A stretch of 64,000 nucleotides of DNA, from the NCBI GenBank assembly GCA_021029095.1, contig JAJOHG010000007.1, positions 992,001 through 1,056,000 on the forward strand. Direction: 5' to 3'. Both the position numbers and the translations under genes were made by a program. Positions 43,162-64,000 of the stretch are shown in pieces. The DNA is from Phellopilus nigrolimitatus (Eukaryota > Basidiomycota > Agaricomycetes > Hymenochaetales > Hymenochaetaceae). Position 1 is the stretch's first letter. Every line of letters begins with the position of its first letter. Below the pieces are notes generated by a model. The model was not told the origin of the DNA and did no database searches. It worked only from the letters and a program-made list of their open reading frames with translations.

Positions 43162-44187
43162 TTACTTCCGGGAATTCTGCAAGAGCTCTTCTCCGATCTC
43201 AGGCCAAAAGTCGATCTCGAGCTCAACGACCCTATCCCAGATTACCTCTGCACGTGTCCACAATTCCGATCCACGTTCGATGCCGAGGCTGTCCACAACC
43301 ACGCGACAATCGTCTACGAACTTGATGAACTCGTTATTCGTCCAATTTCCCACAAATTCGTTTATGGCGAGTTCCGCATTTCCGTCTTGTGATGATGATT
43401 TGTTATGAGGACCAGAACCTACGAAAGTCCATGCATCGAGATAGACCTGCATTTAAATATCAGTACTAGGGGTAAGTGTCCATGAACATGTATACGCTGA
43501 GCTCGCCTTCTCCATTGCCCACAGAAAGATCAGTCCCTCTTCGAGAGAACCCCAATTCGCCACGCGCGCCAACTCCGCCGTGTACGCTCTTGTCGCTGAT
43601 CGCTCTTTCCAGCTTTCCAAGTCAAGCCCAAATTTCTCTGCCGCATTCAAGAAGAAACCCGCCTCCCGCACGACATTCTGCAGGGAGAACGTAAGAAGAG
43701 CGAGTACGCGCTGATTCCTCGCCTCCTGCGTACTCCTTATGCCGTGATGAGCGGCGAAGGGGATCTTGGCGATGAGTCCGCCGATAAATCGTGGGTAAGC
43801 ATGTGCAGCATAGATGCGGTCTTGAGAGAGCCAGAGAGCGAGTAGGCTGCTATCAAGCTTGCGGCTGCGTGCCGCCAGGAGGAAAGGGTGTTGCACCGCG
43901 GCACTGTACGGCTTTGTAGTCTCTTTGGAGATCAGATGTTCCGTTAGAGATGTCTATGGCGTTCAAAGTGTACATTTAATAAATACCACACAAACTTACC
44001 TTTTTCGCACACTTCTTGCTTTTTCGCACACTTCAACTTTTCCGCAAACTTTCAACTTTTCCGCACATTACAAGACTTTTCACACACATTCATTTTATTG
44101 CGCATTCATATTTCAAAAAGCACAAATATACAAAAAAAAAAAAAATGCACACACACAACATTGGTAGATATACTATGTAATGGCATA

Positions 44188-45760
44188 TTAAATTGACTTG
44201 TTGCGCTCCTTGTCGTGGAAGAAGTCTGAGACGAGCTTCACGAAGGTTGGAGACAGCTGCGCCGTGTCCAGGCCATAGTAGTCCAGCGGCAGAAGCATCA
44301 CCGGCGCAGCTTGCGCAGAGTACATCGATTCTGGCTGCGGGCCTGCCGACACCATCGCCGCAATGAATGCTGGGTCCTCCGCAATGCCCGTTGTACTGCG
44401 GGGGAGTGGGGGCGTGTGCGTCAATGAAGAAAGAGATGGAGCGAAAAGTTGAGACGAAGCAGCATCAGCAACGCCCAGCAGTCGGTCAACACACAATTGA
44501 TCGACCTCCTCAACACTGGAGCCGTCCTCCGACGCACTTGGAGCTCGACCGGCTCCAGGGAAGCTGCCTGGCGCTGGGCCGCCAGGGAGGCCACCCGCAT
44601 CTGGGAAGCCGCCCGCACCAGGCGCTCCACCCGCACCTGCAGATTGGTAGAACTTCTGCATGATCGGCCTGCGATGCCCTCGAGCTCCTTCTGCTACTCC
44701 TCATACTCCTTTGATGCCTCCTGCGAGTTGTCGAGCCACGAGATCGCCTCATTCACTGCGGTCTCGAGGTGCGTTTTGTCGCTTGTCCTTCACCTTCTCA
44801 TCCATGATTGAGTTGCGCAGGTTGTACGCATAGGACTCAGGCCATTCTTGGCGGTGATGCGTGAAGCTGCTTCCTCACCCCCAGTTATGAGGGAAATAGT
44901 CAGAATTCCATGTCATAAAATAGATATTTGCTTACCATTGCACTTCTCGGCATCGCTGACCATACGCTCGATCCCCTCCTTCATGAGACGACCCTTGTCG
45001 TTGGTGATCGCGATGCGGTTCGACTTTCCGTTCTTCTTGTCAAGGCGGACAAGTTGAGGATACTGTTGGTGTCGATGTCGAAGGTGACCTCAACCTGAGG
45101 AACACCATGCAGCGCAGGTGGGACTAGAACTTGCGGAAGAGGTTGTTATCCTTCGTGCATGCACACTCGCCCTCGAAGACCTGGATAAGGACACCGGGCT
45201 GGTTGTGGTGAACGTTAAGAAGATTTCGGACAACTTCTTCGGGAAAACCGTGTTGCACTTGATGAGCGCGATGACACCGCCGGCGGCCTCGATACTGAGC
45301 GACAGCGGTGCAACATCGAGGAGAAGGAGGTCCTGAGTCTTCTTGGAAGTGTCACCAGCGGGGATGGCAGCTTGGATGGCCGTCACCGGCTTCCTCTTTA
45401 CAGCGGAGGTGTTTCCCTGCTGGGAGCAAGCAAGAGAAGGGTGAATCAAAAAGCAAAATGAGGGGAGGACGGTGAGAACACACCTCAATCCATTCTTAAA
45501 GCCACGGGAAACATTCTTGAGGTGGCGCATGCGGCCCGAGCCCCTCGTCTTGCGGCGCTTCGCCTTCAGACCCCACTCGAACGACCAGATCTTTACAGAC
45601 GGGTACACGCACTGCGCGTAGGCAAGAACAAAAAAAGGTGGGATGCAGCACCGTACGTGACGACCTTGTCGGGGTTGATGGACTTGTTGGACTCCTTGCC
45701 GTTGAAGAAGTCTGAGACGAGCTTCACGATACGGGGGATTCGGATGATGAGGTGTGGACG
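44188..45760 (-). pseudogene. Captured cytosolic Hsp70 3' half, broken and interrupted
   Basis: Pieces of an SSA-type Hsp70 in family order on the minus strand: [20 protein letters not shown] with KVVTYGAA (about 45640-45730), [20 protein letters not shown] and [14 protein letters not shown] (about 45260-45400), [10 protein letters not shown] (near 45080), the lid region with AVNEAISWLDNSQEASKEY (near 44720), and the tail IMQKFYQSAGAGG through SSVEEVD (44500-44660). The stop after EEVD has become CAA (44497-44499). A second partial copy, [18 protein letters not shown], ends at 44188. Several frameshifts. The normal protein is the cytosolic chaperone; this copy cannot make it. Confidence 0.85.
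45395..45625 (-). pseudogene. Captured ribosomal protein eL37 fragment inside Hsp70
   Basis: Minus-strand [20 protein letters not shown], then [19 protein letters not shown], an intron with GTGTGT donor (about 45425-45485), then GNTSAVKRK match the C-terminal half of 60S ribosomal protein eL37, including its basic RNA-binding tail. It sits exactly between the Hsp70 segments ending YGAA and starting QAAIPAGD, which adjoin in a normal Hsp70. The retained intron shows DNA-level capture. Confidence 0.8.
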
Positions 45761-46025
45761 ACGTGGAGGAAAAATGTCAAATGACATCCAAATTGAGCAC
45801 GCATGGCTCGGCAACTTCTGGAAGTGTTACCAAGCAACTTTGGCGCATTTTTGTTTCTTTTGTTTCTCGTTCAACTATCTTGAAATTCTCTATGTATTGG
45901 CTTTGCATGTATCTATTGCCTCAGAATTTTATACCTGCTTGATCATCCTAGATTTCATACTTCAAAAGCAATAAGTACATAATCTAAATCAATATTTTAG
46001 TCTATAACTTGAGAAAATACATGTA

Positions 46026-46320
46026 TTTAGAATGGCCTTAAATCAAGCCTGACAGCTTCCAAGCTTCAGATAATTAAAGTATAGCATGTCCCAGACCTAG
46101 GAAAATAGGTGTCCCTCAAAGTATTTTAGTTTAGAATGACCTTAAATGGAGTCTGACAGCTTCCAAACTTCAGGTAATTAAAGTATGGCATGTCCTGGAC
46201 CTGGGAAAATAGGTGTATCCCAAAGTATTTTATTTTAGAATGACCTTGAATCAAGACTGACAGCCCCCAAACTTCAGATAGTTAAAGTAAAGCACCTCTT
46301 GAGCCTGAAGAAATAGTTCT
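46026..46320. repeat. Three tandem copies of a 104-bp repeat
   Basis: Copies start at 46026, 46130 and 46234, each with TTTAGAATGRCCTT. Shared words are CTGACAGC, CTTCAGATAATTAAAGTA and GAAAATAGGTGT. The third copy is diverged and incomplete at its end. No coding signal. Confidence 0.8.
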
Positions 46321-46696
46321 TCTTTGAATACCTTTGCTTACAACAAGATCAGATTCGGATTTAGAGAGACACATAGTAAGTGTGGCTCGGAAGTAGTTAA
46401 TTACTGCAACCATTGGAGATGCTACAGGCCTACTAGTCGTGGGATCTCTTTGCAATGCTGCTATTCTCCTTATCACTCCCGTACAGCCATTCCAGCTTCC
46501 TTTTCCTGGTCTAGTAGACAAAAGTTGCCTGTTTCTGAGGCTCATCCTGTATGTCAGAATCAGCCTCATCTGTGCCATCCCCTATGATGTCCTCTGTGTC
46601 TAAAACTGAATCTCACTCTGTCCCAGACTCTAGAATTTGCATGCACTCAGCAACTATCTAGAATATTTCAATGCACATTAGTAAGAGAAAACATGT

Positions 46697-47118
46697 CACT
46701 GCAGGCATCCACTTAGAATCCCCTCATGGTGAGTCGATTAGATGTTTTATTTAATTGTGGCTTTCTTCACACATCATAGTTTAACACTTTTGGACACTTT
46801 TATCCAGATTGATTTTTAACTTCCTTAAGCCTTTCTCCGCACAGTTTAGTTAAACTTTCTTTTTGCCTTTGTCCACACAAAAAAGGCTTATCAAAGGGGT
46901 GCTTTGACGAAAACATGCCTTTGTTAAGCCTTTCTTGTGTGGACAAAGGTGAAAAGAAAGTTTAAGTATATCATTCAGAGAAAGGCATAAGAAAGTTAGA
47001 AAGTCATTTGGATAAAAGTGACCAAAAGTGTTAAACTATAATGTGTGGAGAAAGCCACAATTAAATAAAACAACTAATCTACTCACCATGGGGGGATTCT
47101 AAGTGGATGCCCGCAGTG
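46697..47118. mobile_element. Foldback (MITE-like) element nested in the 4.46-kb transposon
   Basis: Long inverted repeat: the left arm begins CACTGCAGGCATCC and the right arm ends GGATGCCCGCAGTG. Arms remain complementary for well over 100 bases (GAATCCCC, ATGGTGAGT, AATTGTGGCTTTCT, GTTTAACACTTTTGG, CCTTTGTCCACACA). TGT on both sides may be a 3-bp target duplication. No coding potential. Confidence 0.75.
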
Positions 47119-47507
47119 TGTAGAGATATGTTTAATTACCTTTTCTTGCCTGTTAACCTGGGTTTTTTTGCACTTCCTTGACTTGACCTGATGTTAGCAG
47201 CAGTCTAAGTCTTCTGGGCTTGCCTGTGCTGATCTCTCCAGAAATGCAATCATTGAGATGGAATATTAGAATGGAATATAAGCACCTTCTTATGTCTCCC
47301 TGGCTTCAACTTAGCTTTGTATTTGTCAAGGTCTAGCATGTTGACCTTTGCCTCAAGAAAATCAGCAGCACCTATTGTAGTGCATAAGCCAGCATCTTGC
47401 AATCCAAGGCAGGAAGCTCAGAAGAGAATATTGTCAGTATAATATCTAACCTAATATTGAGCACTTACCACATTCTCTGTCATGCAGAAGTCCCAGTCAT
47501 TGGGATA

Positions 47508-47878
47508 GGGCATAGCACAGGTTGACCTGTGGGTATTAGTGTTTTGCTAATAGCACAGCAAGTTCAGCTTTGATTTGAATGCTCTTACATGTGTTATGTG
47601 CGCACTATTTAATACTACAACATACAAAAACATGCATTTAGATTGGTCCATTATTGACAGCACTAAAAGCAAACAGGTCATTTAAGACCCATGCACAGGT
47701 TTTCATGACCCATTTGCCTCTAGTGCTGTCAATAATCCATCAATCAAAACATGTGTTTTTGTATGCTGTAGCATTCAACAGTATGCACATAACACCTGTA
47801 AGATCATTCAAAGTGAAGCTAAACTTGCTATGTTATTAGCAAAACACTAATACCCACAGGTCAACCTGTGCTATGCCC
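47508..47878. mobile_element. Foldback (MITE-like) element, 371 bp, TA-flanked
   Basis: Begins GGGCATAGCACAGGTTGACC and ends with its complement, flanked by TA on both sides (47506-47507, 47879-47880). Complementarity continues inward (CTGTGGGTATTAGTG, TTTTGCTAATA, GCACATAACAC). A TA target suggests a Tc1/mariner- or PIF-like origin, by inference only. Confidence 0.75.
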
Positions 47879-48539
47879 TACATGCAGCAGGAACTTCATT
47901 CACCCAGTCTGGCCCATGGCCCTCACCCCAGACACTCATCCAAAATTTAAGAACTGTTTAGAGCTCAGATTCTGCTGAAATATAAGGGACAAGGTCACCA
48001 ACAGTCATACACATGGTATCTGCTTATCCCATTGCAGTGGTGGGCCATGGGCAAATGCAATAGATAGCAAGGTACAGATGGCCAACTTATTTGTTAGCTG
48101 CTTACTAATCTACCCTATCTATCTGTAGCCCGGAAACAGTTTCTGCATGTTCATTGAAATTCCAACAGATTCTAATAAAGATATAACCCAGAGGACAACA
48201 GAGAGCAAGCACAGTGAGCATTCAGAGAGCAAGCACAGTGAGCATTCAGAGACGCGATGTGTCAGTGTGACACAATATATGTGACACAATGTGTCATGTG
48301 TGACATAAATAACTAGTTCGAAGCGTGAGAAATATTATTTGTAAATTAGCCGACAAAGTGCGCGGAAAAATCCAAAGTGTGCGTTTTTTGATTAAATGTA
48401 CACTTTGAACGCCATAGATGTCGGCATAGTTGTCAAGCTGCGAAAGAAAAGGATTATAATGATCGCCAACGCTTTCGGAAGGGTATCGGTTAGGCCCGAT
48501 TCAGAGTTTCGTCATGCCTTCGCGACGCACCTCAATTAT

Positions 48540-49590
48540 CACTTCAGGCACCCCCCTACAGAGGACCTATTAGATATAACTCTCCCCAAGAGGGTTTGGC
48601 CTATTAGGTCCCCTTTTTCAGTGGCATTCCCAAGGGGTGTGGGTTTTCCCAGAGGTCTGGATTTTCCCAATTTCGGGAATTCCCCAGACTGATCTCAGGG
48701 TCTCTGGGAAAACCCAGCCATGGGTAATCCCATAGCTTGTCACTGGCTGTCAGGGGGTCCTGGTTTGGGAATTCCCCAATAAATAGACCTAATAATAGCA
48801 GTTTTTTCTTTGCTGCATAGCATACATATACTGGATTCTACAGTACTAATTAGAGCCCAAACCACACTTTGAACTGGTCTGGGCCACCAGGGGTTTAGTA
48901 CAAACTGGGTCAGAGGCAGGTCAATTCAGGGGCCAGTCAGGACATAATTCCTCTGACAAAATACAGGAAGTTAAGCCACAATGTATATACAGGCTTCCTT
49001 TAACTGTGCATGTCAATATGCCATATCACAGGGATAATTTCTCTTTCTAAAACTCCTATGGTAAAGTTGCAGTCATATTGCACAGGCTCATTTTGAAATA
49101 GTATAAAAAAAACATGTTGGATTGCACAACTTATATCCTAAGATACAGATAACATTATCCTGACTGTACGGCACTATACAATTTTACTATGTGGTTATAT
49201 GTAGTTATATGAGGTATTTACAAGCTCGGGAACTCCCAGCATGGGTATTCCCAAGATTGGGAAATCCCAACACGGACATTCCCAAGATTGGGAACTCCCA
49301 AGACTGGGAACTCCCAGCATGGACATTCCCAAGATTGGGAACTCCCAAGACTGGGAACTCCCAGCATGGACATTCCCAAGACTGGGAACTCCCAGCATGG
49401 ACATTCCCAAGATTGGGAAATCCCAGCACGGACATTCCCAAGATTGGGAACTCCCAAGACTGGGAACTCCCAGCATGGACATTCCCAAGCTTGGGAACTC
49501 CCAAGACTGGGAACTCCCAAGTTTGGGAACTCCCAAGACTGGGAACTCCCAAGTTTGGGAGATCTCAGCTTGGGCATTCCCAAACTCAGG
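48540..49590 (+). repeat. Left inverted arm of the 7.6-kb element
   Basis: Inverted counterpart of 55215-56157. The outer ~690 bp is unique sequence with GGGAATTCCC palindromes; the inner part is a minisatellite. Length differs between arms only in the minisatellite. Confidence 0.88.
49229..49585. repeat. Minisatellite, ~15-16-bp units
   Basis: About 23 imperfect units of the type GGGAACTCCCAAGACT, GGGAACTCCCAGCAT or GGACATTCCCAAGATT. Each is near-palindromic (GGGAxxTCCC). Because the units avoid stop codons, several frames on both strands stay open; these are not genes. Confidence 0.85.
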
Positions 49591-50309
49591 ATTTCCCAGC
49601 TAGACAAAGCATACTTAGGATAAGTCTTTCACACCTTAAAATTCAATGCATTATAGTAAGACAATATTACAGGTGGGTATAGGAGCTGTACAAGATTACC
49701 TGGGTGCTAATTACCACATTTCCAGAATTTTACTTACCATGATAATTTCAAAGTTTCACTATATGGCTGCTGGGGCTGCAGCAGGTTCTAATCGGCAGTC
49801 CCGGCACTCCGGCATGACCCTGGCCTACTCCAAAAGTGGTTGGCAGTTGCGCACTGCCTGCCTTCTCTTGTTATAGGAATTATTTGTATTTGTAATATCA
49901 TTGCCCAACCTTCGCTGGCGGGTCGTAAAATCAGCCTAGACCAATTCAGGCACCCTGCGGACACCCCTGATTGATTGCATCCCTGCTTTTTTGGGCGGCT
50001 GGCCGACGCGATCCCAACGCGCATCACGTCGTTCCCCGACGCTCCCGCCGCGACAGCGAGCTTTGCTTTTTTTCCCTGTTTGCTTTTGTATTCGTTACCT
50101 ATCCATCCAGATCATAATACTACAAGAATTATTCATTTACGCTATACATTCTAAAAGGGGGCGGGAAGCGCTCGCTCACCCGCACGCCGCGTCGGGCCCT
50201 CGGGCCCGTTCATCCCTCCGCCTGCTGCATGTTGCCCTGTATCCCTGCGTATCATCCCGCATTTCTGCGCTCACTACCGACCGACTGCCCACGCTCCCTG
50301 ACCAACCCG

Positions 50310-51320
50310 CCGTCTCTTGCCATGGTCTTCGCGTACGGGTTGAGACGGAAAAGAACAAGCTTGTTGGTAAACGGGTTCTTGTGCTGCGTCCAGGGGCGCT
50401 TGTGGATCTTCGGTCTCGCGGGGCATACAATGGCCTGAATCTCCGAGCTGTTGATGAGGCATGTAATGTCGGGGTTCGCGATCTTGGCGGTTGAAAGGAA
50501 GTAGTCGTTCTTCTGGGCGGCGGCGGTGTCGAACGTGCCGAGACCTCGTCGAGGCGAGCAGACGCACTCTCGGTCCAGATGACAAAACACCCGAGATGAC
50601 CACCCGGCGCGAGCTAAAGGATATTGAGGCGCGTGACGTTGACGAGCTCGACGCCGGGGAGGATGCGGAACACTTTGACGATACCGTTGTCCTCGGAGTA
50701 GACGACAAGAGGGCCACGGCACTGGCGCTGGCGGCAGTTACGCAGCTTGCCCTTGCCCGCACGGAGGCTGCGGGAGGAGACCTTCTGCACGTCGGCGTAT
50801 GCACTGAGCGCGGTGAAAAGCGCGACGGCCTTGGTGAGCGACTCGGCGGTGGCGGCGACGACGAGGGGCACCTCCTCGACCTGCTCGATGCGGTGGCCGC
50901 GCGTGAGGAGCGCGGAGGAGGCGAGCGCGGTGACGACGGCGAAGCGGCACTGGTTCTGGTACCTTGACGTGCCAGCGGCGCCAGACCATGGTCGGCACGA
51001 ACATGCGCCCGCCGCGGCACATGTTGCCGAAGGCGGCCTGGCCGGAGCGGTGCGTGCCCGAGCCGCCGACGCGCGGGATACGCGCGACGGCGCGGCCCGT
51101 GCCCCAGGACTCGGCGCCGGTCTGGTAGCCGGCCTTCTCGCTCACTGCGTACGGCCGTCGGCTGGCGCTTGTTCTTCGCGATGCTCTCTGGAGTGATCAT
51201 CAGGAGTCGGCTCTTTCAATTGGAAAGGTCTTTGTGTAGAAAACGTACTGTGCACCTGCTGGACGACGTCGAGACGGATAGGCGCCGTCAGGACATCCGG
51301 AAAGAGCGACAACGAGCAGG
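50310..51320 (-). pseudogene. Captured ribosomal protein uL4 (RPL4), frameshifted, intron retained
   Basis: Near full-length copy of the 60S protein uL4. N-terminal VLTAPIRLDVVQQVH (near 51260) is followed by an intron, 51188-51248 (donor GTACGT, acceptor TCCAG), then [101 protein letters not shown]-like GTFDTAAAQKNDYFLS, TAKIANPDITCLINSSEIQ, RPWTQHKNPFTNKLVLFRLN and PYAKTM. A short insertion after QPTAV shifts frame before EKAGYQ, and several later shifts follow. The intron shows capture from genomic DNA, not mRNA. Not functional. Confidence 0.9.
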
Positions 51321-51449
51321 TGGCGACGATGCGCCGTTGCAATTCGCCGGCGTCGCGATACCGACGAGGTCGGACCTGTGTGCTCGTTCAACGAGCTGCA
51401 AATGATCCTGCGTGTAAGCGATCTGAGAAGCGGGTACGCGCGAGCATAC

Positions 51450-51560
51450 ATGTCGTCACGCTGAGCGCCACGGACGTGCCGCTGCAGTTCGTCGACGTCG
51501 CGATCCCGACGAACAAGGCGTGCTACGCGGTCGGCCTCGCACGCAAGAAGAGCAGAAAAG
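51450..51560 (+). pseudogene. Captured uS2 (RPSA/S0) fragment, plus strand
   Basis: Encodes SATDVPLQFVDVAIPTNKAC and YAVGLARKK, like the uS2 stretch that usually reads SPLxYVDVAIPTNNxxxHSIGL. A second short match, APLQFAGVAIPTR, lies just upstream at about 51328-51367. Too short to function. Confidence 0.65.
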
Positions 51561-51950
51561 GTAGTGAGGGGTCTGCGCGTGCATCCAATGGTATTGAAGC
51601 GTCGTTAAGGCCTTTCCCGCGCATTCTCAGTATGACGAGGCAGCGCGGATGTCGTCTGCTGGATTCGAAGCGTGCCGCGTTTGCACGCGAGACGTGTCGG
51701 CTGTGAGAGGGAGGCTGTGACAGAGGGAGACCGCAAGAGAGGGAGACCGAGAGAGAGAGAGAGAGACCGCGAAAAAGGGATACCGTGCGGGAGCGCCCTG
51801 CACTATGAGCGAGAGAGAGCGGCCACACAAGAGAAGACTGCGTGTCGTGTCTACACACAGGGACACGGCCGTGCGTGCTGCACAAGGCGCTGGCACGCCC
51901 TGGAGCGGTTCCGACCGCACAAAGGGGTCTGAAAAAGATATCAGAACATC

Positions 51951-52950
51951 ATTATAAGTAGAAAAAAAGTTTTTTGTACTTACCTGAGGGTTTTGCTGTG
52001 CTGTTGAGGCCGTGGACGTCGTTGTTGTCGTCGACAAGCGACATCAAGACGACATCCGCGACTTTCGGCACTTTCCGCGCGGTGTTCGTGGACTTGCTTC
52101 CGAGCACACCTTGTTTGATTTATACAACATCCAATACATTACCGTTGACCTTGAAATTTTTTGAGGGGCTAGATACATATTACTCCTACATAATAAAAAA
52201 GTTACAATAGGCCGATCTGTCTGGATGTCATCGGAGCAAGCATATACTTACGTCCTTTCCATGTAAAACCTTATTCTTTCAGTTTCACTAATTATTTTCT
52301 ACAGTTTGATCGAGTGGACGGATTGAGGCAGTTGTTGTTTTAAATAGAACTATGCGACTAGTATAAAATTGTCTGTGTGTCCGATGAGTTGTGGGAGAAG
52401 CAGAAATATGCTATCTCGAAAACAGTGTTTTGGAGCATGAACAGCGCGTAGATTATATTGTAAACTTGTCTTGCCTAACTCAAATACACACACTCTCACC
52501 CATTTCTTCTAAATTCCCAATCTAACACCTGGGAAACATTTATTTATATGTAAATATGTATGCCTCAAATTACCAGAATTTATTAACCTGAGGAAGAATT
52601 AAAATAAGACAAAAAACGGTCGTTTCGGACCTGAATTCACTAAAATGACTTGAAATCGTGCATGTTTTGACCCTTGAGTGCCAACGAGCACCGTGTTCAG
52701 CCTAACGTTTTTAATTTGAGCCAACCTTACTTATATCTACCGATATGCAAAGTTTGAGCTTTATAGATCGAAGTTTCTAATTTATAAAAATCTAAAACTT
52801 AGGGTGTTTTGGTATTGAGAGCACCTCACTGGTGTCGTTTCCGTTAAAACTTACAATATACCTGATCCTGGTGCTCCTAAAAACGTAAATGGATGCATTA
52901 TAGTGTAATATAAATATTAAATAATTTTTTAGCATTTTAATGCTGCGCCG
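51951..52950. other. AT-rich interior of the 7.6-kb element
   Basis: No gene recognised over about 1 kb apart from a GTAAGT donor-like site near 51980 (minus) that follows an open stretch (STTTTTSTASTAQQNPQ), possibly the end of another captured exon. The rest is AT-rich with no repeats noted. Confidence 0.4.
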
Positions 52951-53239
52951 AGTAGGCAGAAATGAATATACTTTTGTCCTTTCCTTCGAGCCACAACGTC
53001 GGCATCAGCGCGGCAAAGCATATTATTACTCGATTTGGAGCGCGGATCAGTGCCGACGATGACACGTCGTCTTTTGCCTCGACGTCGTCTCCGTCGTCGT
53101 CTCCCTCTGGCGTCCCACTGCTGCTCTGTATTGCTCGCTCACTCCCTGTATTCTTACATGACATACCCTGCTCGATCTCGGACACCTCAAATTTGCTATT
53201 GTGCGCCCGCATCGTCCTCCGCTGCTCGCCAGCCGCAAG

Positions 53240-53640
53240 GGCTTTCTTCTGTCAGTCTGGTGCCCCCGACTCGCCTCAGCCGTCGCAGGACGACAGCGCC
53301 TCGGGGACCTCGTACAAGCGTCCCAGGACAGACACGAGCGCCGACGAATGCAAGGAGGTGCGCGCGCCCACCGAACCACATCGCTGCCCAGAACTCCCGG
53401 GACAAGCGCAAGGCGCAGTACACCGCCATGGAGCGCCGCATCGCCGAGCTCAAGGAGAACAGGCTGCTCAGGGCGGGCACGCATACCTCTGACTCCCAGC
53501 AACGCGCGGATGACAGAAGACAGGAGGAGGAACTGGTGCACGAGAAGGCGCGCAAGAGGGAGAACGCAGGACTTAAAGAGAGGATGAAGTCCCTCGAGAA
53601 GGGCTGGGAGGCTGTAATGAAGGTCCTCACTAGTCAAGAG
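53240..53640 (+). pseudogene. Captured bZIP transcription factor fragment
   Basis: One frame gives SQDDSASGTSYKRPRTDTSA and DECKEVRA; after a small indel a second frame gives NHIAAQNSRDKRKAQYTAME, then RRIAELKENRLLRAG and EKARKRENAGLKERMKSLEK. The middle matches the bZIP basic region (N-x-I-A-A-Q-N-S-R-D-K-R-K) and the start of the leucine zipper. The frame break inside the basic region rules out an intact factor. Confidence 0.75.
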
Positions 53641-53935
53641 CTTCCGACACCTTCCACATATATGCTGGCTTTCCATCGAACGCATCGCCGTCTCCGTCTA
53701 ATTCGACGACCACTTTCCCCGTCCTCGTCCCTTGCTTTTTGACTTCCTCCGGGTCGCGGTAGAAGAGCATGTCCGTCCTCGCGTCGCAGCCGTCCTTCGT
53801 ACGCAGGACCGTGCCACGCAGGCGGAACACCTTGCAATACAGTAGCTACCGGATCAGGCCGATTGCGCGATGCGCCTTGTTGTTCGTCAGAATCGCGACG
53901 TCGACGATCCGCGGTGGCACGAACGCGTCCTCGCG
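53640..53935 (-). pseudogene. Captured uS2 (RPSA/S0) C-terminal fragment, minus strand
   Basis: Minus-strand RIVDVAILTNNKAHRAIGLI, then [28 protein letters not shown] match the uS2 run VDVAIPTNNKxxxxIGL, EVLRLRGT and FYRDPEE. An acidic stretch and a stop at 53630 follow. A stop after LIR and other changes make it non-functional. It overlaps the end of the captured bZIP piece on the other strand. Confidence 0.75.
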
Positions 53936-54179
53936 GGCCGGGGTGCAGTGCCGCTCGCGCGTGTGCGTTCGCGGTCTTTAGGGTGAGGGTTAGCGGCACG
54001 GAGGGGGAGTGCGCGCAGAAGAGGAACGTGTTGGGCGCGTTGGACGTGAGCGAGTGGATGGCGAAGCCCGGGGGCGCGGAGAGGGTGATGGAGGTATTTA
54101 TCGCGCTTTTGGTTTTGCGTTCAACTTGGTTTGGGACGGGAAGAGAGGGAGAGAGGGAGAGGGGGACGCACTGTTACTT

Positions 54180-54700
54180 GTCTTGAGGAGCAGCTCAGTC
54201 GCGCCCGAGCTCGCACTGCTTTCGCCGGCGTGCGACATGAAGGCGGACGGCGCAATGATCGCGTTTGACGTGACGAGCTTGAGCGGGGAAGACATGTGGT
54301 ACGAGTGTGCCGGCCTGCACGTCTACATTCTGATTTTTCTTTTCTCGTGAGCTACGTAGAACAACTAGGACCCGAGCAGACGAAAAGTGGACCTCTGCGG
54401 CGATGCGTGCGTTGCTCGTCTTCGGGTCGAGTGTGCCGAACGCGAGGCCCACCGCGAGTCCGAAGCGGAAGTTGCTGAAATGCTGAAATCCGTCTCGAGC
54501 TTCTTGTCCCCCCCCCCCCCCCCCCCCCCGCGCGTGGCGGGGAGGCGCAGGACGATGTTGAAGCGCAGCATGTCGTGCGGGCGCAGTGCGCGCCCCGCGT
54601 GCCAGTTGTGCGATGCCCACGCTGTGTTCTCATGCGGCGTGATCTCCGTTCTCGTCTTTCTTTCTTTCTTGTCTGTTTTCCGCACCTCGATTACTTCTCC
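54180..54700 (-). other. Unrecognised captured sequence with a long C run
   Basis: Protein-like minus-strand pieces in several frames (MSSPLKLVTSNAIIAPSAFM, FGLAVGLAFGTLDPKTSNAR, ASHNWHAGRALRPHDMLRF) suggest one more captured, broken gene that I cannot name. A C run of more than 20 bases lies at about 54510-54530. Confidence 0.4.
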
Positions 54701-55214
54701 CCCTCTAGTTATTTTTAAGTAAAAGTGTAGCCCCTCTTATACTCATGTATGATAGTTCATCTATAATATAGAAAACATTTGACACAAAAAAGGCCCGACA
54801 ATGAGAATAGTGAGTGTGTGGGTGGGCAACGGTGGGCGGCTATGGTAGTGCTATCTATAAGCGAGTGTAGGCGGGCGGCAGCGGTCATTAGGAATCACGC
54901 CAGATAATCTTAGCAAGGAACGTAAAAACAAATTAAGTTCTATCCTAGTCTATACTGAGAGGACAGCAGTAGTGCGCCGCAGTTGCATAGCCCTCCGCTT
55001 TCAGGATAGATCAGGGTCTGCCGAAGAGCTGAGTCGGAGGTGGCATCAACCCAGAAATTCCAAAAAAGGGCTCATATTGATTGCCTTAAGTAACCTAATC
55101 AATTTTTTATTTATCTTATTATAATATTCTAAGTTGTGAAAGGCTTGAGTTTTGCCAGCATTTCCAGTTTGTCTTTAATACCTTTTGACTGTCTGGGATG
55201 TCCTGTTTTGGGTA

Positions 55215-56157
55215 TTTCCTGAGCTTGGGAATGCCCAAGCTGGGAGTTCCCAATCTTGGGAATGTCCGTGCTGGGATTTCCCAATCTTGGGAATGTCCAT
55301 GCTGGGAGTTCCCAGTCTTGGGAATGTCCATGCTGGGAGTTCCCAGTCTTGGGAGTTCCCAATCTTGGGAATGTCCATGCTGGGAGTTCCCAGTCTTGGG
55401 AGTTCCCAATCTTGGGAATGTCCGTGTTGGGATTTCCCAATCTTGGGAATACCCATGCTGGGAGTTCCCGAGCTTGTAAATACCTCATATAACTACATAT
55501 AACCACATAGTAAAATTGTATAGTGCCGTACAGTCAGGATAATGTTATCTGTATCTTAGGATATAAGTTGTGCAATCCAACATGTTTTTTTTATACTATT
55601 TCAAAATGAGCCTGTGCAATATGACTGCAACTTTACCATAGGAGTTTTAGAAAGAGAAATTATCCCTGTGATATGGCATATTGACATGCACAGTTAAAGG
55701 AAGCCTGTATATACATTGTGGCTTAACTTCCTGTATTTTGTCAGAGGAATTATGTCCTGACTGGCCCCTGAATTGACCTGCCTCTGACCCAGTTTGTACT
55801 AAACCCCTGGTGGCCCAGACCAGTTCAAAGTGTGGTTTGGGCTCTAATTAGTACTGTAGAATCCAGTATATGTATGCTATGCAGCAAAGAAAAAACTGCT
55901 ATTATTAGGTCTATTTATTGGGGAATTCCCAAACCAGGACCCCCTGACAGCCAGTGACAAGCTATGGGATTACCCATGGCTGGGTTTTCCCAGAGACCCT
56001 GAGATCAGTCTGGGGAATTCCCGAAATTGGGAAAATCCAGACCTCTGGGAAAACCCACACCCCTTGGGAATGCCACTGAAAAAGGGGACCTAATAGGCCA
56101 AACCCTCTTGGGGAGAGTTATATCTAATAGGTCCTCTGTAGGGGGGTGCCTGAAGTG
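55215..56157 (-). repeat. Right inverted arm of the 7.6-kb element
   Basis: Inverted copy of 48540-49590. The minisatellite part (about 55215-55475) is about 90 bp shorter than in the left arm; the remaining ~685 bp matches almost base for base by eye. Confidence 0.88.
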
Positions 56158-56294
56158 CAATTATCGACCACTGTGTTCAAATCGACGTTTCATCGCAACG
56201 ACTCAATTGCCCATATACATAGGCGATAAGCTCGATGAAAGCTCATATTTCTCTTATGAAAAGCCTTGTACGCTCAGGAATCAGGATTCGCATG

Positions 56295-57290
56295 ATGGCA
56301 CATCCTGACCCAGATTACGACTTCGAAGGCGACATCGCGCTCCGGGCTGGGGATCGAGATTGCAAGCTAAGTACACTCATCCTTGCTTAACCCACTCTCT
56401 GGGTTCCTCCAGCAGACGTTAGAAATACTGAGATACCCATCTTGATTACATAACGCGGAAATGTCTTCTCGATGCTCCTGGGATTAATCTATCTTTCTTA
56501 GTCTGTAAAGCAAGCCCCTCACAATCCTTATAAATCTGCCAACGGTAGCAGAAGATTATGATATACATAATGTGTTGGAGACTCTCGGAATGCTTGCTGC
56601 CAGTAGCGTACATCTAGGGCTCCGCACCGGGTTACGACCGTATAGCACAGTCCCGTTTACGGATACGATCCGTACGTACACGGCCCGTATGAAGGTGAAC
56701 AGTGCCCACTTACGGTACGGATACGGTCCAAATACGGTACGGCCGTAATCCGTAATTTACGGTCTTGACATCCGTTTTCAAGCAGCTACGGACAATTCAC
56801 AATGCAGCAAGTTATTTATTTCAGCTATATTGGCACCTCATAATGTAAATTAACTCACTGCAAGCACCAGATACTCGAATCTCATGACATATAGCAGGGG
56901 CCGTATACGGCACTTGAAGTATCACATCATTACGGACACTGCCCGTAACTTACGATCCGTATTTTGAAAAATTTGAGGCGCTTACGATACGGTTACGGGA
57001 CCGTATACGGTACGGCCGTAAACCGTAATTACGGTTACGGTGCGGAGCCCTATTACAGTACATCAGGAAAGGCTCTTTTTCGAAAGTCTGAAATATTTGG
57101 AATGCCATGAAATTACTCGGAACTACTTAGGACTGTCAGAATATATTGACAGAAGTCTGGAAACTTCAAATGATCGCTTCACGTATTTTCCAAATGGTAT
57201 GACCCTCGACCTAATTTCTATCCGTTGCGACGACATGCAGCCAGTTAGGAAAAGCCGCAATGTATTCGTGTTATGCCAATTCTAGCAGCT
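56295..57290 (+). pseudogene. BTB protein relic, block C, split by a MITE
   Basis: Starts ATG with MAHPDPDYDFEGDIALRAGD, followed by KLSTLILAS (compare BTB FKVHSxxLxxxS), then frame changes, LPTVAEDYDIHNVLETLGM and LAASSVHL, which runs into the MITE at 56617. After the MITE a separate open frame (about 57050-57285, including YLECHEITRNYLGLSEYID) may be the C-terminal part, not proven. Tail-to-tail with DUF6533 copy C, as in the other blocks. Confidence 0.55.
56617..57050. mobile_element. MITE, 434 bp, TA target duplication
   Basis: Terminal inverted repeats GGGCTCCGCACCG at 56617 and its complement ending at 57050, flanked by TA on both sides (56615-56616, 57051-57052). The interior is full of CGTA/TACGG words, including the palindrome TACGGCCGTA twice. 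Second copy, with decayed ends, at 32166-32499. Confidence 0.85.
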
Positions 57291-57629
57291 ATCTAGCAGC
57301 GAAGACAGATGATCGGAATATGCAGAACAGTGACGAGTCTAATGCTCAAATCGAGTATCCAGGTCCACAGCATGAGGAATTGGACGAATGACTAACAGTA
57401 GATAAAGAATGGTGTCGGCAAGGAAGGGAACGAAAGAGTACTCCTGCAGGGGATCTAGGTGCAAATCAGCGAGAGGTGAGCGCATCAGTGGCATGCCGAT
57501 GCCAAAATATACAAGACCGACGACGAACGTTGGCAACATCGTTACTATGACTCACAGAGACGACACATACGTGCTACAGAAAACGCCCAGTACAATTAGG
57601 TCCTTTTCCATTGTACAAGGAAACTAGGG

Positions 57630-59060
57630 GGTCCTATACCTGGTTATCACCCGTGCCTGGAAGGGTGTATCAAACGATCGAGGCTGATACTCTGGCTGAC
57701 TGAGACAACTCTTCTTCAAGTGTACGTATAGCATAGGAGCGACAAGACCCGATAGCGCCACGGAAGCCACGAAATGCACGTTAAGCACAGACCAGTAGTC
57801 ATGCTTTCGGATCCATTTCAATCTGAGAGGCACGTCGGCGGATAAATAATGGCTAACCCACCGATGATGTAAAGATAGCACTTGACTCGGCAAGTCCAAT
57901 TCCGACGGCATACACTATCAACACGCTGAAGAGCAGGCCATGGTCGTCCAGTTGAAGAGGAAAGCAAAAATGATCAAACTACTCACAGAGCAAAGTACAT
58001 GAGGTTGTCGCGCACAATAATTTTCAAGATCGGCGACCATTTTATTTGAGTTTTGTAGGTCCTTCTGTAGGCTTTCCAAGATTTGTACGAGCAAAGCACG
58101 AAGGATATAGTCTCAAGAAGAATGAATGGGATCCAAATGGTCGTGGTAAATTCTGGTCGCTATGAGATTGCGTTACCCTTGTATACAATTTGAAAATATT
58201 CACCTTCCACCTGGACATCTAAAAATATAAAACCACCGAGAGCCAATACATCTAAAACACAGAGTACTACCACAAACACTTTCCTGTTATCATAGATCGC
58301 AGTGATACGAAGCTGTAGCAGGACTTGAAATTCCTCACAGTTTCAGTTGCCGCCTCCACAAAGTCAGGACTTAGCTTACCCATCGAGGAAAACAGCACAA
58401 TGGTGCCAATGTAATAAACGGGCTCTGGAGTCACTGGTACGGTATTCCAATCGTTTGCTAGATGTATTTCATGAGCTCAACTAGTTCGAATCATACCGTG
58501 GTTAAGTCATGAAGATAGCTACAATGAAATAATGCCGCGCCCGCAATATCTGTATAGTAGAAAGAGCTTAAAAGTCAGATTCATAGTCAAACGTGAATAA
58601 GTACCTTGGGATAGACCATAGCTATGTTGTCATGTTTGAGGATGAGAATGAGACATCGTTTTTCATGTACAAGATAAACTTATCCTCGTACCCAAGGCAA
58701 AAAACTGACAAGTATCTCGTCTAGAAGAAGCGATGTGGTCAGGGATGCATAAAGCACGGTGGTAAAGAAATATAAAATACCAAAATGTAGATGAGAGAAC
58801 CTGCGTTCAATTTCTTCTTCTGCAGTCACGAGAACGTGTAAGAGATCTTCAATGCCACGTGTGGTCATATAGCTTACCCAGACAAATTCAACCTATTGAT
58901 GGATGCATTTAGAACGTTACAAACGCGTATGATGTGGTCAAGACCGATTTTTGCATACCTCGTCGTCGAGCGTTAGCACTGCGTGTATGAATAATGTTAT
59001 TAGAATGGACGTTGCCTCAGTGGAATGATCGTACGGAGGTTGTAGGAAAATGCCGTAAAG
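57630..59060 (-). pseudogene. DUF6533-like membrane protein, copy C, broken
   Basis: Same order of pieces as copies A and B on the minus strand: AVLTLDDEV (near 58970), VEFVW, KKKLNAGSLIYIL, then WYFIFLYHRAL in another frame, YYIGTIVLFSSM, LLQLRITAIYDNRKVFVVVL, VLDVLALGGFIFLDVQVEGE, an in-frame TAG after NAIS (near 58160), WIPFILLETISFVLCS, YKTQIKWSPILK, DNLMYFAL and a last part DYWSVLNVHFVASVALSGL, VAPMLYVHLKKSC. The stretch 57640-57800 is almost identical to 41090-41250 in copy B. The stop makes it a probable pseudogene. Confidence 0.65.
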
Positions 59061-59875
59061 AAAGCACCTTCCAACGAAGGCTGGTTAGTCTTCGAGCATG
59101 CATTCATCGAAAGACAATCTTACAGGGTAGGAAAGTGTCATATCGAGGGGTAGGAGTGGTCATGGATGGGATGGTCGATACAGTAAAATGGGCGAGATGC
59201 CGTAGAACGAGCTTCCAAGCGCACAGGAGACTGAGTTGGACGAAGACCAACCTGGGTTGCTGTTCCAGTCCGTTTTATATACTGTACGTGAGAAGATGAT
59301 CAAGAAAAGGGAATTAGGCAGTGCTTTTCGTCATGACCCCCACATTGACATAAAACGGACAACTGCGCACCTCATATTGCTTGCTCCGGACATGCGTCTG
59401 GATTTTCGGGGGAAAGGATTGTGATACAACTGGCACTCGGGTACAAATAATTTATGTAACGTCAAGGTCGAAGACATTACTGGAGCGATTAAAAACCCGT
59501 GTGTATGGGCATCCTGCCAGGGACTGGAGCGCTCAGGCTGATAAGCCTGCAGAAGAAATAAAGCATCAAACCAAAATAGATGATCTCGGGTAAAGTGGTT
59601 TTTATGAATGTACGTACATGTACTAGGACTCGGCAAACTGCATCTGATCGTCGTGTTGCGAAATCAGTTCCGACACCCGACTGTGCTGTACCATCAGCTA
59701 AGCGGTCGAACTTCACAAAGCACACTCTAAACTTGAATATCGAAACATAATGAAGTACGAAAAATGCAAAATGAAAATGGCTATGCGATCCATGACGTAT
59801 ATAAGATTTGATTGCCCTCGCCTTGTACGGTATATCGCTGACCGGCCAAAGTATGTACACCGAGTATCAAGTAAC
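59061..59875. other. Block C flank, no complete gene
   Basis: Shares stretches with 42490-43030 upstream of copy B (TGTAGGAAAATGCCGTAA, GGAGCGCTCAGGCTG, ACTCGGCAA, GCTGTACC), so the duplicated block reaches at least 59760. KHTLNLNIE near 59715 is the third instance of the small conserved fragment. Confidence 0.5.
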
Positions 59876-61227
59876 TTATAACTGTTTTACTTCTTTCTTC
59901 AGCAACTTTATATGATCAGGACCGGACCTACAACATCCGCCGCTTACCACGCCTCCCCAAGCTCCAGATGCCTTTTCCCTCTTCACAATCGCAGCAAGAT
60001 TCTCTGCCCATGCACCTGGGGCTGGAGATTTAGTCTCGCCTTCCTCGATACCTGCGCTTACCCAGTTGTGGCTAGCGACGTCGTACGTGGCCCCTCCGTT
60101 TGGGTAAAGCACGACGAACGGTTTCTTGCCAATGCGAGGACGAGAGTCTTCGACAGCCACGCGTAGCCCGCTTACGATCGTGTCGAGGTCTGTGACATGC
60201 GTGCAGTTTATACCGATACCGTCCGGCGATGGAAATTCGACCGATATACGCTCAGGATCCTGACCATCCATATCGTTCTCGGCAAGCAGGGCGAGTACGA
60301 CGTCCTCGGCGCTAAGTCGCTCGCCTCCTGGCGAGGCCTCCTGTGGGAAGCAACCATTCGGCCACACGGTGCTAATCCACCACGGCTTCACCGCGAGCCC
60401 TCGTGCTCCAAGATACGAGGACAAGCGGCCCATTGCGCGCCTGATCGCGCGGATCTCACGTGCAAGTGGGACAGTTTCGAAAGCGATGGCGTCGATGAGC
60501 GGCCATACGCCGCCCTCGTCGCCCGCAGCATCGTCAACGAAGACCTTGAGCCGATCAAAGTGGAACTCCTCCAGCGCCTTCTCAGCGGCACGCTCGAGAG
60601 CACGGCGATCCTCGTCAGATTCGGCCCGGAAGGCGGTTGTGTTCTTTCCATCATGGGAATACTTTTGAGGTCCGTACGACGGGGGGTAAAATCCCTCAAA
60701 CTCCTGCATGGGCATCGGAGGTAGCGTCGCGCCGTATGGTCCAAGCCCCAGAACCACGCTGATTTTTCTCTGCCCATTTTTGTTCTTAACATCTGTCAGG
60801 AACTGCTCTTTTGCTTGGAATGCGAGGCGCACGGACTTGCGCATGAGTCGCGTCGCATCGGCGTCGGTATATCCGGCACGGCGAAATGTCTCGAATGCAC
60901 ATTGGTAGCTAGGCAGACAGGGAATGACTAACTCGGATTACATCTTCTGAAGGTAATTGCTTACGTAGATGTCATGATAAGATCTGCTCCGGCATCTAAG
61001 AATGCCAAATGCACCTTAACTGCGGCCTCAGGCTCGGTGTTTACGAGCGATGCAGACCATAAAGGCGTAGAGAGGTCTTTTCCGAAGTCATTTTCGAGGG
61101 TTGTTCCCTGCAACCAAAGAAAGCAAAATATCAATTTTCATCTTCGAAGATGGATTATGTATTCATGTCGACGCACGAAACCCCCGTCAAGGAGCAAGAT
61201 TCCGTCTTCCGGGAAAACGAACGTCAT
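59876..61227 (-). CDS. Homocysteine S-methyltransferase (MHT1/SAM4 type)
   Basis: Cytosolic zinc enzyme that transfers a methyl group from S-methylmethionine or S-adenosylmethionine to homocysteine to give methionine (EC 2.1.1.10). Exons 61177-61227, 60965-61107 and 59876-60908 join in frame to 408 residues. The N-terminus ILLLDGGFGTTLE spans the first splice. Then come FGKDLSTPLWSASLV, AHLDAGAD-like HLAFLDAGADLIMTSTYQC, LGPYGATLPP, DAIAFETVPL, KPWWISTVWPNG, GINCTHV (first zinc Cys) and GGVVSGGCCRSGPDHI (the zinc Cys pair GGCC). All three metal-binding Cys are present. Somewhat longer than the usual 325-390 residues because of inserts near residues 95-140. The ATG at 61227 has A at -3. No lesion seen. 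Confidence 0.92.
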
Positions 61228-61962
61228 GATTAACAATCAAGCTAAACTGATAGACTTTGCAAGCCACTAGATGTCGATCAATGTGTGGTCGATGTGCGCT
61301 CCCTGGCCTCGCACGAAGTAGAGCACCGCGATGCTCTAAATACTACCTCGACAGAGTGAGGATGTAACCTGATAGATATACAAGACTGAAGTACACCTGA
61401 AGACGCGAATAGTGCGTGAGTCGAAAACGAGCTCGGAAGAACTCGGGTAAATCAAGCTTCTTCAGCCACATTTCCTCTTTAGGGATGTAACTACTTTTGT
61501 CTAATTTTACGCGACCACAGTCCTCTTCCTCAACACCTACCATATCGTGCCCCTCTATACTCAGCTTGGAGAACATTCACCTACTTGGAGACATTGTATT
61601 CCACACTATCGTGATCTGGTGCTTTTCATTTGCAAAGATTGCTCAAAGCGGTGCGTCTATTGTTGTGATTACGCGATAATAGGGCACGGGTCTACATTTC
61701 CTGGACACGAACGCGAACACACGTTCCCGACCATTCTGCTTTGTTTTCTTTCTTGGTTATATTTCTTTGCCGTGACAAGAGCGGCATTGCAACAGTTTCA
61801 CACGCCGAGACGCGTTACGACGCGTCAACCATCGTCTAAAAGCGGGACGTAGGCCACGACGCCCTTGTCTTCCACCCACACTATCGAACGAAAGAACAGG
61901 TGTGTCGTCGTTTCTCCAGTTTGGACTTGCCTTTGGCTGAATGCTCAATAGTCTGTATCACA
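61228..61962. other. Divergent intergenic region
   Basis: Shared upstream region of the methyltransferase (minus) and the checkpoint kinase (plus). An open stretch at 61343-61576 (minus, 77 codons) has no family motif. ACGCGT occurs at 61811-61822 region (GACGCGTTACGACGCGTC), a doubled MluI-box-like sequence about 140 bases before the kinase ATG, which would fit cell-cycle control of a checkpoint gene; this is inference. Confidence 0.45.

Positions 61963-64000
<2,038 letters not shown>

Follow-up and report, generated by a model that had tools for sequence, protein, structure and literature searches.

The DNA analysed here is a stretch of 64,000 nucleotides from the basidiomycete Phellopilus nigrolimitatus (GenBank assembly GCA_021029095.1, contig JAJOHG010000007.1, positions 992,001 to 1,056,000 of the forward strand), which at its full length is called the window; coordinates without a contig name are window positions, and contigs of the assembly are given as C followed by a number. 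The window contains a 7.6-kb insertion (48540-56157, the copy on C603), which is in all likelihood a non-autonomous DNA transposon of the Pack type, moved in trans by a transposase of the KDZ (Kyakuja-Dileera-Zisupton) superfamily. Gene packing of this kind is known, but the superfamily is unexpected; larger elements that share the ends of the insertion encode a KDZ transposase and would supply its partner.

The element begins with CACTTCAGGCACC at 48540 and ends with the complement at 56157. Its borders and terminal inverted repeats (TIRs), the target site duplications (TSDs) being placed by flank comparison and by an empty site on C320, are as follows:

48533..48539, no strand: left TSD, CAATTAT
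48540..49456, plus strand: left arm (TIR), starting with CACTTCAGGCACCCCCCTACAGAGG, an exact complement of the right arm over 917 nt, and found at many other places
55241..56157, minus strand: right arm (TIR), 917 nt, 100% complementary to the left arm
56158..56164, no strand: right TSD, CAATTAT, present once at the empty site

When extended, the arms reach 933 nt at 99.5%. Exact complementary ends, an exact CAATTAT duplication and two inverted arms of about 1 kb had been described at 48533..56164 in a sequence-only reading of the window, and every structural point of that description is confirmed.

In the same assembly, contig C320 has both flanks of the window element joined around a single CAATTAT, with 561 of 565 positions identical in the alignment; the earlier reading had proposed looking for such a site. 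Downstream, C320 matches window positions 56158-64000 at 98% over the whole 7.8 kb. Because C320 carries the empty site, the insertion must be real, and it is polymorphic. The simplest explanation is that both haplotypes of this region were assembled, one with the insertion and one without; the collinearity suggests that C320 represents the haplotype without it and did not arise by a recent duplication. A second insertion, of about 4.5 kb (43955-48415, ends TATGGCGTTCAAAGTGTACATTTAA, 6-7-bp duplication (A)GATGTC), lies some 120 bp to the left of the element, and C320 lacks this one too.

The interior of the element contains the following pieces of host genes:

50324..51300, minus strand: uL4 piece with the first intron retained and the frame broken (three frameshifting indels, one stop), 89% to the host gene on C113 (L034); PF14374, E 4e-21
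51328..51367, plus strand: uS2 piece, 85% to host uS2 (L075)
51456..51538, plus strand: uS2 piece, 87% to host uS2
53200..53252, minus strand: uS2 piece, 87% to host uS2
53252..53731, plus strand: bZIP piece, 91% to the host gene at C112:1545545-1546030; PF07716, E 1.5e-4, 22.2 bits, just below the cut-off of 22.3
53733..53929, minus strand: uS2 piece, 81% to host uS2 at C603:1063136-1063332
53917..54640, minus strand: DUF7330-like piece, 77% to C613, 76% to C2 and 75% to C17; PF24016 in the host gene at E 0.014, below the cut-off

The uL4 match passes through the first intron, of about 60 nt as judged from its GT..AG ends and the uL4 frame, and since intron sequence is retained the piece was copied from DNA and not from spliced RNA. 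The host uS2 gene (C603:1062743-1063332) lies about 15 kb beyond the element. Captured coding DNA thus has host counterparts at 81-91% for uL4, uS2 and bZIP, and relatives only, at 75-77%, for the DUF7330-like piece; the genes on C613, C2 and C17 are related to its donor but are not proven donors themselves. The origin of the cargo from uL4, uS2 in both orientations and bZIP had been recognised beforehand and stands, as does the view that the cargo is frameshifted and old; the fourth source, the DUF7330-like piece, had been overlooked. Both KDZ and DUF7330-like genes are typical of Agaricomycetes.

The window element belongs to a family with the same ends. The searches of the 56.4-Mb genome scored the best candidates only, so that all copy numbers are lower bounds. 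The left arm has at least 57 matches, with scores for the best 40 of 56 candidates. A hand count gave 74 occurrences of the exact 13-base end, where about two would be expected by base chance on our estimate. With one mismatch the count was 150 versus 84 for a reversed control, and because many such matches are due to chance, exact ends alone were used. Another 27 convergent pairs of exact ends were seen, 22 of which, spanning 0.9 to 67.9 kb, were checked (those at C290:12560, C567:74678, C612, C624 and C630 were left unchecked). A perfect TSD was found in 20 of the 22, being 7 bp long in 17 and 8 bp in three. The joined-flank search covered the window element and nine others and gave span and identity only, the alignment being read for C320 alone; flanks matched across the junction for all nine. 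The joined flanks of C122 were found at 100% on C614, those of C533 at 98% on C106 and those of C137 at 98% on C279; C179, which lies within a repeat, gave 39 rows at 98-99%. For C24, C12, C434, C390 and C168a the matches reached 83-91%, an identity that points to paralogous rather than allelic sites.

Three pairs of elements are nearly identical at different sites, namely C390 and C533 (99.24%), C122 and C24 (99.83%), and C434 and C567 (99.80% over 16.7 kb, with different 8-bp duplications). These identities of 99.2-99.8% at different sites indicate that the family, including elements of the C434/C567 type, moved recently, in agreement with the recent mobility that had been suspected. Shorter elements with perfect 7-bp duplications (1.2-4.7 kb) occur at C13:667443-669071, C224:356908-358536, C90:213992-215630, C168:304464-305634 and C112:1806187-1810922; their two ends differ in subtype, one being of the TTACCAAGG type and the other of the CTATGGAAG or CTACAGTAG type, as if these elements had recombined.

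A profile search found no match to PF18758, the KDZ domain, on the stretch of the window element, and Pfam revealed no transposase domain in the 21 that were scanned of its 57 open reading frames (ORFs) of at least 70 aa. The absence of a transposase, as anticipated, is therefore borne out for the KDZ profile and for these 21 frames, and the element is classed with the KDZ superfamily no further than as a non-autonomous relation of the same-end elements that have KDZ genes in or beside them. In the genome PF18758 has 73 matches. The best eight (C90, C555, C312, C13, C434, C567, C625 and C168) lie in or beside same-end elements, seven of them between a pair of such ends and the C625 match 4 kb from one end, which makes a KDZ element, and not a Mutator-type one, the most likely autonomous partner. 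A partner with the same ends had been predicted, and C434, C567 and C625 are KDZ-bearing candidates for it. The C567 element has a CxC1 domain ahead of its KDZ domain. The ends of C434, C567 and C625 are about 85% identical to the window arm over their outermost 255-260 bp, and the TIRs of C434 and C567 measure about 229 bp. C312 and C555 share 99.81% over 3.7 kb around the KDZ match and have different 7-bp duplications. Five long same-end pairs, of 23-68 kb, each flanked by a perfect 7-bp duplication, enclose a KDZ match:

C90:37567-105467
C168:366907-399569
C555:304757-334694
C312:218486-246480
C13:547636-570460

Nested growth is likely in C90, C168 and C555, each of which holds a second KDZ match, and growth of this kind after insertion may have shaped the elements of 28-68 kb. 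The C567 element also encodes (L020:8762-9748, minus strand) a protein with an SPT5-like KOW motif (PF00467, E 6e-7), while four other long open frames of C567 that were scanned gave no Pfam match; these are possible accessory genes. At C90:95487-99065 and C290:101194-104772, in the same arrangement, a uL4 piece lies 2.3 kb from a KDZ match, a hint that a transposase-bearing element perhaps carries captured cargo.

Arrays of short palindromes were found inside the ends of the window element:

49169..49600, plus strand: subterminal array of about 16-bp repeats with GGGA-N1-3-TCCC palindromes, a candidate transposase-binding region
55193..55481, minus strand: matching subterminal array of the right end, likewise a candidate binding region

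In a comparison of 12 elements (the window element and 11 others), the GGGA-N1-3-TCCC motif was counted 209 times in the outer 1.7 kb at both ends, and not once in 71 kb of element middles or in the 56 kb of the window outside the element.

The arms themselves were compared over their outer 830 nt, left versus right within an element and versus the best other element. In the window element they are identical to each other and at most 96.4% identical to those of any other element. Arms likewise resemble each other more than those of other elements in C12 (100% versus 95.8%), C137 (99.9% versus 92.9%), C578 (99.4% versus 96.4%) and C168a (97.2% versus 95.9%). C179 has arms at 94.4%, below its 95.9% to other elements; the near-identical C533 and C390 have arms at 97.5% and 98.6%, versus 99.0% to other elements, and in C122 and C24 the left and right arms share 69.8%. 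No within-element contrast is seen in the outermost 250 nt, where the arms of the window element are identical to the one on the right of C168a and the arms of C434 and C567 match better across elements than within one. As DNA transposition does not remake the arms, identical arms point to conversion within the element in some lineages and not to the age of the insertion. Near-identical arms had been read as a sign of recent mobility or gene conversion; the arms alone no longer serve as a sign of recency, since those of several elements resemble each other more than any other element's.

These observations suggest the following course of events. An element with CACTTCAGGCACC ends took up copies of pieces of uL4, uS2, bZIP and DUF7330-like genes from the DNA of the host, as the host counterparts, the retained uL4 intron and the common uL4 junction show; templated repair of a break or gap is the probable mechanism. 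The packed element then multiplied by cut-and-paste, as the same cargo at many sites, the different duplications, the empty sites and the near-identical copies show. Its transposase most likely comes from larger same-end elements such as C434, C567 and C625, and this enzyme probably recognises the outer end together with the subterminal palindrome arrays and would make a 7- or 8-bp stagger. In some lineages, conversion inside the element would have kept the arms alike, and the cargo appears to decay as a passenger.

The cargo is not the result of a one-off capture in the window element, since parts of it recur in nine further complete elements, among which the arms fall into two diverged types. 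By host-gene matches, C168a, C137, C179, C122 and C24 contain pieces of all four genes, C578 of uL4, uS2 and the DUF7330-like gene, C12 of uL4, uS2 and bZIP, and C390 and C533 of uL4 and uS2; the same comparison found no pieces of the four genes in C434 and C567. The uL4 piece ends at host position 2427 (2429 in C390, C533 and C90), and its 3' end joins one and the same stretch of non-uL4 DNA in each of the ten copies that were inspected (the window element, C390, C533, C90, C622, C12, C168a, C137, C578 and C179), which indicates that uL4 was captured once and then multiplied. The uL4 match of C566, a copy outside these ten, ends at the same base by BLAST, and C122 and C24, having only an internal 77-bp uL4 piece, lack the junction. 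Several independent captures of the same host genes, instead of one that spread, would agree with the limits of the bZIP piece, which are 1501-1988 of the host in the C603 group and 1612-2552 in C12, C122 and C24, and with some host-like states that the uL4 pieces of C390, C533, C90 and C622 share and the six full copies lack. The common 3' junction argues against such a series of captures, as does the 5' limit of uL4 common to six copies (C603, C168a, C578, C566, C137 and C12), and we regard it as unlikely; a second capture of bZIP would be one way to account for the two sets of limits.

Within this single spread of uL4, cargo and arms do not always agree. The arms of C12, C122 and C24 are about 71% identical to the window arms over 431 nt, and C12 is 83% identical to the window element in the uL4 region versus 71% in the arms, which exchange between lineages, or faster change of the arms, would explain. 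C168a, C137 and C179 have a 470-bp DUF7330-like piece inside the bZIP piece that is lacking in C603, where it may have been lost or replaced. It is conceivable, although we put this forward tentatively and rate it somewhat below an even chance, that KDZ transposons run a gene-shuffling system in which a patchwork is swapped between lineages whose arms have diverged to about 70%, cargo and arms having separate histories and same-end relatives forming units of 17 to 68 kb with perfect duplications. Short pieces of the same cargo also lie in another set of repeats (C212:126505-129069, C24:446636-449201, C9:32613-35124 and C603:946599-946717); at these four sites no adjoining arm was present among the matches listed and no exact end was found.

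The coding pattern, examined in uL4 only, is that of what looks like a decaying passenger. Changes private to one of six full uL4 copies comprise 49 synonymous and 95 non-synonymous ones (34% synonymous; 29% expected without selection). Differences from the host that are common to all six comprise 20 synonymous and 4 non-synonymous ones, so that most of these must have arisen while the gene was working, and the simplest candidate is the host gene once the capture had taken place. When four partial copies are added, the shared differences fall to 4 and 1 and mosaic states appear, so that copies may have exchanged some sequence with one another or with the host gene. That the cargo is functional, as a chimeric protein or as a regulatory RNA against uL4 and uS2, and is kept by selection, would fit its retention in many copies and the uL4 piece of C12, which has no stop in the host frame and a single frameshifting indel. 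Nevertheless, each of the 11 uL4 copies compared has at least one frameshifting indel and the private changes in the six copies look neutral, which for uL4 together speak against a functional protein; a selected cargo of either kind is rated very unlikely.

Elements of the Mutator type (Mutator-like elements, MULEs) typically make a TSD of about 9 bp. The 7- and 8-bp duplications of the checked end pairs speak against placing the window element in this class, and KDZ genes are what its larger same-end relatives contain, the genome having been searched for KDZ and not for MULE transposases. The kinship with Mutator and Pack-MULEs implied by the sequence-only reading is thus not supported, while the Pack-type, non-autonomous nature it had proposed is supported by the TIRs, the duplication, the host counterparts and the lack of a transposase in the scanned ORFs. 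Long arms and a cargo from several genes do give the classic look of a Pack-MULE (PMC6431247), and even so a Pack-MULE moved by a MuDR-like transposase is hardly credible. CACTA/EnSpm elements have CAC..GTG termini and a 3-bp TSD (PMC12730594); the termini would fit, but a TSD of 7-8 bp does not. Reported lengths in the KDZ superfamily are 7 bp for Kyakuja, 8 bp for Zisupton and Dileera and 4-8 bp for Cryptococcus KDZ elements (PMC12730594, PMC12810828), and the 7 or 8 bp of the window family fall within this range. Kyakuja elements are described with CA..TG termini and without TIRs (PMC12730594); the window element shares the termini but has long TIRs.

Several points nevertheless weigh against a KDZ-mobilised Pack-type element. 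Cross-mobilisation is deduced from shared ends, and beyond their outer 255-260 bp the ends of C434 and C567 are no longer a good match to the window arms. In the long C168 element the best KDZ match contains a stop codon. Systematic assignment to ends covered the best eight of the 73 KDZ matches, and some contigs with KDZ genes, such as C244 and C544, lack an exact end, which makes it probable that there are KDZ elements with different ends. Two of the 22 end pairs, C578 and C446, have no matching duplication. The nearest uL4 relative of the window element, C168a, differs from it in the 470-bp insert, and with that insert in C168a, C137 and C179 but not in C603 the history of the cargo is not a simple tree. 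C12, C122 and C24 contain only 4 or 5 GGGA-N1-3-TCCC motifs each; since the motif was picked after viewing the window, among related copies, the array is a lead for a binding site and not proof of one. C578 has the look of a recombined or misjoined copy: on the left it is flanked by sequence that fits the right flank on C283, and on the right by the same sequence as the right flank on C566. C283 and C566 are themselves partial copies at contig ends. The mismatched flanks of C578 show that misjoining or ectopic recombination does occur in the family, but for the window element an assembly artefact joining unrelated contigs inside the arms is refuted by C320, which rejoins both flanks exactly with one CAATTAT and follows the window for 7.8 kb downstream, and has practically no probability left.

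Taken together, a Pack-type element with a KDZ-type partner accounts best for these data, and one assembly offers the whole chain, from an empty site and intron-bearing host counterparts to many cargo copies, recent near-identical pairs and candidate same-end transposase genes. How KDZ elements capture and spread host genes thereby becomes directly testable, and the case shows that decayed pieces of ribosomal-protein genes need not be old duplicates but can be the cargo of a transposon. Among the best-ranked literature, mostly outside subscription journals, no Pack-type KDZ element was found.

Most work on cut-and-paste transposons that pack genes has been done in plants, where Pack-TYPE elements have inverted ends and a target duplication; the window element has both. 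Like it, the plant elements are non-autonomous DNA transposons with captured coding DNA (PMC8903248); unlike them, it resides in a fungus, has a candidate KDZ partner, and shares its cargo with elements that occupy many sites and have arms of two diverged types. Helitrons have neither TIRs nor TSDs. Those of Pleurotus ostreatus likewise capture gene fragments in a mushroom, but are rolling-circle elements (PMC4289320). In Pseudocercospora and its relatives (Dothideomycetes) a hAT element captured and amplified histone H3 and was inactivated by repeat-induced point mutation (PMC6710886); there too a housekeeping gene was captured by a fungal DNA transposon and multiplied, whereas here the ends are of the KDZ type and the pieces come from four genes. 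Some fungal KDZ elements carry TET/JBP genes, a cargo that passes between transposon lineages (PMC12730594): uptake of cellular genes, CA..TG termini and a 7-bp TSD are common to both, as, perhaps, is passage of cargo between lineages, although those elements hold a coding gene together with a transposase, and the window element holds broken ribosomal and other pieces, no transposase and long TIRs. Among Cryptococcus elements, KDZ1 is about 11 kb long with 241-bp TIRs and 8-bp TSDs, KDZ2 and KDZ3 have TIRs of 139 and 169 bp and TSDs of 4-8 bp, and the active KDZ1-3 have KDZ and CxC1 domains (PMC12810828). The candidate partner C567, with KDZ and CxC1, the TSDs of 7-8 bp and the TIRs of C434 and C567 resemble these; the window family differs from KDZ1-3, for which the descriptions consulted in PMC12810828 mention no captured host genes, in its longer arms (about 0.4 to 1.7 kb) and in the host genes it has captured.

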